64,000 nt of DNA from Shewanella putrefaciens (GTDB lineage: Bacteria; Pseudomonadota; Gammaproteobacteria; Enterobacterales; Shewanellaceae). The stretch spans positions 1,692,501 through 1,756,500 of the forward strand of contig NZ_CP066369.1 of NCBI RefSeq assembly GCF_016406305.1, given 5' to 3'. Of this stretch, positions 59,207 through 63,302 are shown in pieces (position 1 is the stretch's first letter; each line of letters begins with the position of its first letter). Both the position numbers and the translations under genes were made by a program. The notes under the pieces were generated by a model, which saw nothing but the letters and a program-made list of their open reading frames with translations, was not told the DNA's origin and did no database searches.

Positions 59207-59239
59207 TAAAAAAACAGGCACTATTGAAAGTGCCTGTTT
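59207..59239 (-). terminator. Terminator of the CstA-family gene
   Basis: On the minus strand AAACAGGCAC / GTGCCTGTTT closes a short loop and is followed by TTTTTT. Confidence 0.85.
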
Positions 59240-59273: not shown

Positions 59274-60722
59274 TTATGCTTCGTCGGGTAACTCCGCATC
59301 GCTATCGACTTCGCCTTTACCTTTGGTTTTTACAATCAAAAGTCCTGTAATCACTAAGGTAGAGATTAGACCTGCAATGGTAGATAAGGTCATAGGTAAG
59401 CCAGCACCTAAGGTTGCAGAGTTGAGCAAGAAGGTGATGACGACTGTGGTCATAAACATGGCTGGAATAGTACAAATCCAGTGCAGTTTATTATGGCGTA
59501 GCAGATAGGCTGAAGCTGTCCACAGCATAAGTACTGCAGTCGCTTGGTTCGCCACACCGAAATAGCGCCAAATCACCCCAAAATCGACTTGAGTCAGCAG
59601 ACCACCAATCACAAACAAAGGTATCGCAAGCACTAAGCGCTTAGGTAAGGCCACCTGTGGCATTTTAAAGAATTCAGCCAAAATCAGACGGGCGGAGCGG
59701 AAGGCGGTATCACCTGAAGTAATAGGCAGGATAATCACCCCTAGGATAGCCATAAAGCCACCGACAGCGCCTAACAAGCCAGTAGAAGCCTCATATACGA
59801 CGTTAGCAGGGTTGCCTGACATACCTGCGCTAAGGCCTTCAACGCCGCCGAAGTAAGAAAGCGCAATCGCACACCAAAGCAGTGCAATAATACCCTCACC
59901 AATCATGGCACCGAAGAACACAAAGCGGCCATTCGTTTCATTTTCAACACAACGTGCCATTAATGGAGATTGGGTTGCATGGAAGCCTGAAACGGCACCA
60001 CAAGCGATGGTGATAAATAATGCCGGCCAAAGTGGCATGTCATTTGGATTTAAATTCTGGAAGAAATCGCCAGCTTGTACATTGGGCAGTAAGGTATGCT
60101 CGCTCGACAGAATAATGGCGAAGGCCAGACCAAAGGACATAAAGAACAGCAGGGCGCCAAAAAATGGGTAGAGTCGACCGATAATTTTATCGACAGGTAC
60201 CACAGTCGCGATCAGATAATAAACGAAGATAATACCCACAAAAATGCTGACATCCCAGCCAGTCAGTTTGCCAAGCAGGCCCGCTGGTGCCGAAATAAAC
60301 ACCACGCCTACGAGCAGTAGTAATATGATCGCAAACACATTCATAAAGTGTTTTGCACTCTTACCTAGGTATTTCCCCGCGAGGTTAGGCACAGATTGGC
60401 CACCGTTACGAACGGATAACATGCCCGAGAAATAATCGTGAACCGCACCTGCGAAAATACAACCGATCACAATCCACAGCATAGCTGCAGGACCATAGAG
60501 AGCACCGAGGATTGGACCAAAAATTGGGCCGACGCCAGCGATGTTAAGTAATTGGATTAAATAGACTTTACCCTTTGACATCGGCACGTAGTCGACGCCG
60601 TCCGTTTGGGTGTAAGCCGGTGTTTGACGTTTAGCGTTAATGCCGAAGACTTTTTCGACAAAGGCGCCATAGATAAAATAGCCGCCGATCAGAAGACCGA
60701 CGCAGAGCAGGAACCACATCAT
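59274..60722 (-). CDS. CstA family transporter, short form (probable pyruvate or peptide uptake)
   Basis: A 482-residue membrane protein of the carbon-starvation CstA family, with about 12 helices. Family motifs are DGVDYVPMSKGKVYLIQLLNIAGVGPIFGPILGALYGPAAMLWIVIGCIFAGAVHDYFSGMLSVRNGG and FHATQSPLMARCVENE. E. coli CstA and BtsT are about 700 residues, so this is a short variant. It lies downstream of btsS-btsR on the same strand, and E. coli BtsSR controls the CstA-family pyruvate transporter BtsT, so pyruvate uptake is my best guess. Confidence 0.88.
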   Translation of the reverse strand: MMWFLLCVGLLIGGYFIYGAFVEKVFGINAKRQTPAYTQTDGVDYVPMSKGKVYLIQLLNIAGVGPIFGPILGALYGPAAMLWIVIGCIFAGAVHDYFSGMLSVRNGGQSVPNLAGKYLGKSAKHFMNVFAIILLLLVGVVFISAPAGLLGKLTGWDVSIFVGIIFVYYLIATVVPVDKIIGRLYPFFGALLFFMSFGLAFAIILSSEHTLLPNVQAGDFFQNLNPNDMPLWPALFITIACGAVSGFHATQSPLMARCVENETNGRFVFFGAMIGEGIIALLWCAIALSYFGGVEGLSAGMSGNPANVVYEASTGLLGAVGGFMAILGVIILPITSGDTAFRSARLILAEFFKMPQVALPKRLVLAIPLFVIGGLLTQVDFGVIWRYFGVANQATAVLMLWTASAYLLRHNKLHWICTIPAMFMTTVVITFLLNSATLGAGLPMTLSTIAGLISTLVITGLLIVKTKGKGEVDSDAELPDEA

Positions 60723-60754
60723 ATTGTTATCTCCCCATTTGAGTTGAGCAGAGT

Positions 60755-60771
60755 GTAAACAAGTTGTTTAC
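60755..60771. repeat. Perfect palindrome in the CstA-family gene leader
   Basis: GTAAACAA-G-TTGTTTAC, 17 bases, lies 33 bases before the ATG. It looks like an operator of a dimeric repressor; the protein is unknown. Confidence 0.55.
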
Positions 60772-60832
60772 CTAAAACAGGGGGATTTGGTTAAGAGGTC
60801 GATAATGCAGCGTCAGCGGCAATAGGATGGCG

Positions 60833-60883
60833 TGAGCGGTTACATACGTATGTCTTACACAAGTAAGCATCGCCCTAAGCGGT
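60833..60883 (-). promoter_or_regulatory. Candidate BtsR-binding direct repeats upstream of the CstA-family gene
   Basis: Minus-strand ACCGCTTA (60876-60883) and ACCGCTCA (60833-60840) both fit the motif ACC(G/A)CT(C/T)A known for BtsR at the E. coli btsT promoter. Starts are 43 bases apart, about four helix turns, where E. coli has two turns. A perfect 12-base palindrome (ACATACGTATGT, 60842-60853) lies between them. Confidence 0.65.
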
Positions 60884-60912
60884 GTTCTGGTGCGGTTAAG
60901 TAGTTAAAATAG

Positions 60913-61623
60913 CTATTGAAAACCAAACAATTGCTTAAGGCTTTTAAGATAACGGCGCGATACGGGCACTTTGTCTCCGAGTAGGGTAGTGACCTCAGCG
61001 CCAGTATCGAGCAACTCAATCTCGGCGATAGCCTTTGGTGAGATAAGATATTGACGATGACAACGCACGAGCGGCGTTTTTTCCTCTAGTACTTTCAACG
61101 TGAGTTGGGTGTGGACTTTTCCCTTAGTGCAGGCGACATGGATGCCGCTTAAATCACTAAATACGTATTCCACATCCCCAATAGGAATGACTTTTAACTT
61201 GCTACCGCTGTAGCAGGGCAAGTGCTCGAGGCGGGATGGTGCTATGGCATTGACGGCCTGTGGTGTAAGATCTTTGCGAACACGTTTGAGGGTTTGATTG
61301 AGCCTATCGGCATCTATGGGTTTGAGTAAATAATCGAAGGCATGGCTATCGAAGGCCTTTACGGCAAACTCATCATAGGCGGTAACAAACACGATTTTAG
61401 GCAAGGTTTCAGGATCGAGCATGGCAATTAACTCCATCCCTGAGATCCGCGGCATTTGAATATCGAGGAAAACCAGTTGGGGCTTTTCCTTAGCAATGGT
61501 TTGTAACGCCTCTATGGCATTAGCGCATTGGCCGATAATATCAATGTCGGCTTCTTGACCGAGGAGATCGGCGAGCTCCTCACGAGCAAACAGCTCATCA
61601 TCCACAATTAAACAAGTGATCAC
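60913..61623 (-). CDS. btsR: LytTR response regulator BtsR
   Basis: 236 residues. Receiver domain with VDDE acidic pocket, phospho-acceptor Asp54 (LVFLDIQMP) and Lys in LLKPIDADRL; then a LytTR DNA-binding domain (GDVEYVFSDLSGIHVACTKGKVHTQLTLK, VRCHRQYLISPKAI). Length and sequence match E. coli BtsR (239). Its ATG overlaps the btsS stop, so the pair is coupled. It probably activates the CstA-family gene just downstream. Confidence 0.9.
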   Translation of the reverse strand: MITCLIVDDELFAREELADLLGQEADIDIIGQCANAIEALQTIAKEKPQLVFLDIQMPRISGMELIAMLDPETLPKIVFVTAYDEFAVKAFDSHAFDYLLKPIDADRLNQTLKRVRKDLTPQAVNAIAPSRLEHLPCYSGSKLKVIPIGDVEYVFSDLSGIHVACTKGKVHTQLTLKVLEEKTPLVRCHRQYLISPKAIAEIELLDTGAEVTTLLGDKVPVSRRYLKSLKQLFGFQ

Positions 61624-63302
61624 GTGTTTGTTTCCGTTGGTTCTATGGGCAGACGAATGGTGATTTTAGTGTATTCATCCGGCTCGCATTCTACTGTGAT
61701 GCCATATTGTTCGCCAAATAGGTTTTGGATCCGTTTATGGACTAAGTTCATTCCCAGCCCTTCGGAGCCAGTTATGGGCTGATATAAACCTGCATTATCC
61801 GTGACATCTAACTCTAAAATATTGTCATCTAGCTTACCTGTTACTTTGATTTGCCCTTGTTCTATCATATGGGATGTGCCGTGTTTGACGGCATTCTCTA
61901 TGATAGGTTGCAGGGTAAATGCGGGCACTTTGCAGTGGTAGAGTGACTCAGGTATGGCGATATTAACTTGTAATTTATCAATAAAACGCGCCTTCTCAAT
62001 CGTGAGATAGGAGGCGATGTGATCGAGTTCATCCCCGAGGGTGACTAGGCCTGTGGTGCGCTTTAGGTTTATCCGTAAAAACTGCGATAGCTGTTGTAAT
62101 AGCTGTTTGGACATATCAGGATCGCGTTTGATAATCGCACTGATAGTATTGAGCGCATTAAATAAAAAGTGTGGATTAACTTGGGCTTGCAGCAGTTTTA
62201 ACTCCGCCTGTGTGAGTAAGTTTTGCTGTTGTTCGAAGCGTCCATACAGAATTTGGTTGGATAGCAAGCGTGCGATACCTTCACCTAAGGTGCGATTAAT
62301 ATTCAAGAACAGTTTATTTTTAGGTTCATACAATTTAATGGTGCCTATGACCTCAGTGTCACTACGCAAGGGGATCACTAGACTCGAGCCGAGTTTACAT
62401 TGGGCCGAAATCGAACAGGCATAGGGAGTTTCGACGCCATCGGCAAACATCACCTTATTTTGATTTATGGCCTCAAGGGTGATTTTTGATGAAATAGGCG
62501 TGCCTGGGATATGGTGATCGGCGCCGATCCCGATAAAGGCTAAAAGTTTTTCCCTATCCGTAATCGCGACTGCACCCACATTGGTCTCTTCAATCACAAT
62601 TTGAGCTACTTTGCCGCTGCTTTCCTCATTAAAACCTTTAGAAAGTAAACCCACACTGCGTTCGGCAATTTTGAGGGCTTTAGTCGAAAAGCTTGAGGAG
62701 AGTTTATCGAACATCGTCTTTTGATCACGGATCATGCTCATAAACAGCGCCGCACCAATAGAGTTTACGAGTAACATCGGCGGCGCAATTTGACGAACAA
62801 GTTCCCATGCATCGTCAAATGGGCGTGCAACCAACAGGATAATGCTCATTTGCATCATCTCAGCGTAGAAGGTGACTAAACACACCAGCAATGGATTGTA
62901 GATAAGTTCGCTCTTACCCGCTCTGCGTAGATAAAAACTGATCATCCCCGACGAGAGGCCTTCCAGTGTCGTCGATATGGCGCAGGCGATATCGGTAAAG
63001 CCGCCCATACTGTAGCGATGCAATCCCCCCGTCAATCCGACTAACAATCCGGTTACTGGACCGCCTAATAAACCACCCAGAACGGCACCCATGGCGCGGG
63101 TATTGGCAATCGCACCTGAGGTTTGCTCGCCAAAGTAGGTTGCCATAATGCAGAAACTGGAAAAAATTAAATAGATAAAAATTTTGTGGGGTAAGCGTGG
63201 TGAGGTTTCTGCAAATAGCTTAAAAAGCGGTGTTTTACTGACTAAGTAAACAATCACTAAGTACAGTGACATCTGCTGGGTGAGTAAAAGGATCAAGGAC
63301 AT
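61620..63302 (-). CDS. btsS: Sensor histidine kinase BtsS (LytS family)
   Basis: 560 residues. N-terminal 5TM-LYT membrane sensor with the diagnostic AIANTRAMGAVLGGLLGGPVTGLLVGLTGGLHRYSMGG; a GAF-like domain (VGAVAITDREKLLAFIGIGADHHIPG, CSISAQCKLGSSLVIPL); the His_kinase domain with the phospho-acceptor His in NPHFLFNALNTI; and an ATPase domain (LQPIIENAVKHGTSH, GLGMNLVHKRIQNLFG). Matches E. coli BtsS (561) closely; that protein is a high-affinity pyruvate receptor. First gene of the btsSR pair. Confidence 0.92.
   Translation of the reverse strand: MSLILLLTQQMSLYLVIVYLVSKTPLFKLFAETSPRLPHKIFIYLIFSSFCIMATYFGEQTSGAIANTRAMGAVLGGLLGGPVTGLLVGLTGGLHRYSMGGFTDIACAISTTLEGLSSGMISFYLRRAGKSELIYNPLLVCLVTFYAEMMQMSIILLVARPFDDAWELVRQIAPPMLLVNSIGAALFMSMIRDQKTMFDKLSSSFSTKALKIAERSVGLLSKGFNEESSGKVAQIVIEETNVGAVAITDREKLLAFIGIGADHHIPGTPISSKITLEAINQNKVMFADGVETPYACSISAQCKLGSSLVIPLRSDTEVIGTIKLYEPKNKLFLNINRTLGEGIARLLSNQILYGRFEQQQNLLTQAELKLLQAQVNPHFLFNALNTISAIIKRDPDMSKQLLQQLSQFLRINLKRTTGLVTLGDELDHIASYLTIEKARFIDKLQVNIAIPESLYHCKVPAFTLQPIIENAVKHGTSHMIEQGQIKVTGKLDDNILELDVTDNAGLYQPITGSEGLGMNLVHKRIQNLFGEQYGITVECEPDEYTKITIRLPIEPTETNT

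Follow-up and report, generated by a model that had tools for sequence, protein, structure and literature searches.

Pyruvate sensing by the two-component system BtsS/BtsR has been described in Escherichia coli and in Vibrio. In the E. coli sensor BtsS, residues R72, R99, C110 and S113 have been implicated in pyruvate binding and H382 is the phospho-acceptor (PMC10653868). The E. coli pair lies away from its target, btsT, as a preliminary description of the locus studied here had stated. In V. harveyi the target M892_07985 adjoins its BtsSR pair M892_07975/07980, and Aeromonas cases are listed too (PMC5552118 Table 1), while V. campbellii has a single BtsSR system and a sole pyruvate transporter, BtsU (PMC10653868). 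Almost all LytTR regulators are described with two repeats and 11-13 spacer bases (PMC4847170).

The 64,000-nucleotide stretch of DNA analysed here (the window) comes from a complete, 4.58-Mb Shewanella genome and carries btsS, btsR, a gap and a short cstA gene in this order, with the whole module on the minus strand within one 4-kb stretch. The gene order, the checked coordinates and lengths, and the family assignments agree with the preliminary description, which had placed a btsSR pair 5' of a CstA-family gene. We consider it highly probable that this pyruvate-sensing BtsSR module controls the adjoining compact CstA, and with it pyruvate import, via a phased array of BtsR-like sites. Extracellular pyruvate would bind the membrane part of BtsS, which would phosphorylate BtsR, and BtsR would in turn bind the direct-repeat array 5' of the short cstA gene. 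The array consists of an upstream pair and a core triad, three 8-mers in 20/21-bp steps, the last of which starts 42 bp 5' of a weak -10. The 20/21-bp steps correspond to about two helical turns and set the sites on one face of the DNA; BtsR on the proximal site would help RNA polymerase to start transcription, and the compact CstA-type carrier would import pyruvate. The sequences themselves establish the identity of the genes, the sensor residues, the array with its spacing and constant distance to a -10-like hexamer, and the lack of the array where BtsS is lacking; BtsR binding, activation, pyruvate induction via BtsS and pyruvate as the substrate are what we infer.

According to Pfam and NCBIfam, the two-component genes encode a 5TMR_LYT, GAF and His_kinase kinase with a LytTR partner. 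The sensor gene btsS (61620-63302, minus strand) encodes a LytS-type kinase of 560 aa with 5TMR_LYT, GAF, His_kinase and HATPase domains, the individual GAF models scoring slightly below their curated cut-offs, and its product aligns with E. coli BtsS over 552 aa at 59% identity. The 236-aa LytTR response regulator is encoded by btsR (60913-61623, minus strand), whose GTG start overlaps the end of btsS; it matches the NCBIfam BtsR equivalog NF008677 with 368.7 bits (cut-off 246) and shares 51% identity with E. coli BtsR. In the alignment, BtsS residues R69, R96, C107, S110 and H378 of the window correspond to E. coli R72, R99, C110, S113 and H382, and these pyruvate-binding residues and the phospho-histidine are kept in the window and in all BtsS relatives aligned (73 of 73). 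A LytS-type 5TMR sensor domain also opens a protein of 1016 aa (L148, 2767-5817; genome C1 about 1377266-1380316), the later part of which, read by eye, looks like PAS, GGDEF and EAL.

The transporter gene (59274-60722, minus strand) encodes a short CstA-family protein of 482 aa (PF02554, 3.6e-60; 204.7 bits, cut-off 27), a probable pyruvate importer, and is followed on its 3' side by a terminator-like hairpin with a T-run (59212-59239, minus strand). The protein falls far below the NCBIfam model for the long BtsT/CstA symporter, NF011590 (97.9 bits and 482 aa vs 1188 bits and about 700 aa); E. coli BtsT itself reaches 1014 bits, below 1188, so this model is CstA-specific. Identity to BtsT is only about 28% over its N-terminal part, and the alignment covers BtsT residues 40-210, 248-384 and 564-610. 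Because three separate stretches align, the short transporter, as judged from its sequence, is a compact form without internal and terminal parts, and no truncated gene. The transporter of Shewanella sp. HN-41 is 99% identical. The preliminary description had read the short length as a sign of a variant, which holds against E. coli only (BtsT, 716 aa); the same short type is found in Vibrio and Aliivibrio, and relatives at E<=1e-100 occur in 159 of 295 genomes of the order. Pseudovibrio (Alphaproteobacteria; L111, L113, L114 and L115) carries the entire btsSR-cstA module with a transporter identity of 79-82%, which suggests horizontal transfer.

No long BtsT was found in the source genome at E<=1e-250. 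Its one other CstA relative is a paralogue 47% identical to the window transporter, and the array is absent from the paralogous promoter. This paralogue, likewise a short CstA, lies near LrgA and LrgB genes (L147, 2169-5682; genome C1 about 3505168-3508681); relatives of LrgA and LrgB are responsible for pyruvate uptake in Streptococcus mutans. A search of solved structures gave no sequence match to the short CstA, and an AlphaFold model of it (24 relatives) was set aside with a mean pLDDT of 52.

The partial alignment to BtsT, at about 28% identity, does not fix the substrate by homology. BtsSR might control the short CstA while its cargo is something other than, or besides, pyruvate, such as amino acids, peptides or a different small acid. 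This would accord with the low score on the NCBIfam pyruvate symporter model and with the first description of CstA as a peptide transporter, as the title of PMC5847655 indicates. We nevertheless regard it as unlikely, since the sensor shows no variation at its pyruvate-binding residues and V. campbellii has a single pyruvate transporter beside its one BtsSR system (PMC10653868), namely BtsU, probably a short CstA as well.

Turning to the proposed control by BtsSR, the 190-nt gap between btsR and cstA contains five matches to the BtsR-like consensus ACCRCTYA, i.e. ACC(G/A)CT(C/T)A, arranged as ACTACTTA-21-ACCGCTTA-43-ACCGCTCA-20-GCCGCTGA-21-ACCTCTTA (start-to-start distances in bp). All lie on the minus strand: an upstream pair with one mismatch in the first copy (60897-60904, -182 from the ATG) and an exact second copy (60876-60883, -161), and a triad comprising an exact copy (60833-60840, -118), a copy with two mismatches (60813-60820, -98) and a promoter-proximal copy with one mismatch (60792-60799, -77). 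The register of both degenerate triad members is conserved; the middle position holds an exact copy in many relatives, and a relative with 99% identity (L058) has an exact ACCGCTTA at the position equivalent to the ACTACTTA site of the window. The preliminary description had correctly located the two exact copies, at 60876-60883 and 60833-60840, but its 43-base spacing instead of about 21 joins these two and skips the degenerate ones. Counting the degenerate copies restores the standard 20/21-bp spacing, with direct repeats about 21 bp apart 5' of the target in the form of the triad, and 43 bp is the distance from the upstream pair to this core. What stands of the proposed variant pyruvate-sensing uptake module is thus a module beside its target, as borne out by comparative evidence, and not a variant by spacing. 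A middle copy at -140/-139 was rejected, having 6-7 mismatches, so that the window array has 2+3 copies and is not a continuous six. Between the array halves lies a perfect palindrome, ACATACGTATGT (window 60842-60853), partly kept in close relatives; CRP-like sites were found neither in the window gap nor, consistently, in relatives.

The array extends well beyond this genome. A comparison of 136 regions upstream of short-cstA relatives, reduced to 94 distinct promoters (<80% identity), yielded 172 exact sites in the distinct set vs 2.5 expected, with 66 site pairs spaced by 20-21 bp and 39 spaced by 40-43 bp vs about 0 expected for each. Chains of 2-6 copies are present in 125 of 131 upstream regions (BtsS-less genomes left out), and the inspected exceptions retain degenerate copies that match the register or nearly so. 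Most often a triad steps by 20 and then by 21 bp (n=49 promoters), and related promoters repeat the copies at about -119/-99/-78. Such arrays precede the short cstA in Shewanella, Oceanimonas, Pseudovibrio, Aliivibrio, Vibrio and Photobacterium, and at <=1 mismatch the triad occurs in 8 of 295 genomes of the order, seven times directly before a short cstA and once before a btsT homologue. The longest array seen, with six copies from -180 to -79, belongs to Shewanella fodinae (L103, upstream of 5001). The E. coli btsT promoter has two exact copies and a third, GCCGCTCA, 20 bp upstream; the nearest btsT promoters likewise have three copies at 20-21-bp steps, and more distant ones (family f27) mostly one or two.

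The distance between the array and a -10-like hexamer is also fixed. In the window the proximal site begins 42 bp 5' of a predicted -10 hexamer, TACACT (60752-60757, minus strand), and TANNNT follows the proximal copy at 42-43 bp in 72 of 84 promoters. A scan of the window promoter gave no good match to a sigma-70 consensus promoter, which fits activator dependence. An inverted repeat, GTAAACAACTTGTTTAC (window 60755-60771), overlaps the predicted -10 and is kept only in the nearest Shewanella relatives. Five short-cstA genomes have no BtsS match at E<=1e-40, and the array is absent in all five, while it is kept in the genomes tested in which BtsS is encoded elsewhere. This co-absence (Fisher p about 1e-6) argues for a link between array and BtsSR in a supporting role only, because the five genomes, four Shewanella and Pseudovibrio japonicus, represent few lineages.

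Transcription of the transporter mainly by read-through from btsSR, with the repeats not the main control, would be in keeping with the shared strand, the gap of 190 nt and the lack of a terminator-like site in a scan of this gap. Read-through may indeed contribute as well, but we judge it very improbable as the main source, since the array and -10 geometry is retained in divergent promoters, including some with btsSR downstream or at another locus. Chance matches can be dismissed with near certainty. ACCRCTYA by itself shows no enrichment in the window (9 found vs 6.9 expected), and it is the clustering that is improbable: two exact copies within the gap arose in 13 of 20000 shuffles and the quality of the phased triad was matched in 1 of 20000. 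The triad is conserved across genera, and a search allowing up to 3 mismatches finds it a single time in the window (shuffles 0) and a single time in the 4.58-Mb genome (reversed-pattern control 0).

Given control by BtsSR through the array, the two-turn spacing on one helix face suggests that the copies are bound cooperatively by BtsR. More speculatively, BtsR could act as a cooperative multimer along 3-6 phased sites, and species could differ in how strongly, or at what threshold, pyruvate induces the target according to how many sites they have and how good these are. LytTR regulators are otherwise pictured with two repeats; we hold the multimer reading to be possible, with the odds somewhat against it. 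The natural variation in copy number offers a simple dose-response test.

Adjacency and the short transporter are ordinary, since the arrangement is widespread, and an adjacent BtsSR target has already been reported for V. harveyi/campbellii (PMC5552118). The under-described point appears to be the phased array of 3-6 BtsR sites at a fixed distance from the -10, masked when exact matches are read by eye. The third copy at E. coli btsT likewise goes beyond the two-repeat LytTR description (PMC4847170). A single 4-kb stretch in a tractable genus brings together the sensor and regulator of the proposed pyruvate uptake with the promoter they would act on and the transporter. We know of no paper on a three-site BtsR layout, subscription literature being mostly outside our coverage.

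Among known systems, E. coli YpdA/YpdB-YhjX is also a LytS/LytTR pyruvate system with direct-repeat sites, but the YpdB binding motif, GGCATTTCAT (PMC4847170), differs from the window sites. A separate YpdAB-like LytS/LytTR pair was observed elsewhere in this genome, directly 5' of an OFA-type MFS gene (L146, 2586-6384; genome C1 about 4520085-4523883). The sequence TGCATTTCAT, which differs from the YpdB site at one position, precedes the start codon of the MFS gene by 85 bases, and this locus resembles E. coli YpdAB-YhjX. E. coli BtsS/BtsR-BtsT shares with the window the sensor residues, the three-copy array and the 20/21 steps in the btsT promoter, but its target is distant from btsSR whereas that of the window adjoins it. 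Vibrio relatives match the window transporter at 70-73% identity and have about its length, and some Vibrio loci have the order cstA-btsS-btsR instead of btsS-btsR-cstA, consistent with the V. harveyi locus tags. By this comparison the window transporter is likely the Shewanella counterpart of btsU, and the module seems most like V. campbellii BtsSR-BtsU, which likewise has one BtsSR system with a neighbouring transporter target.
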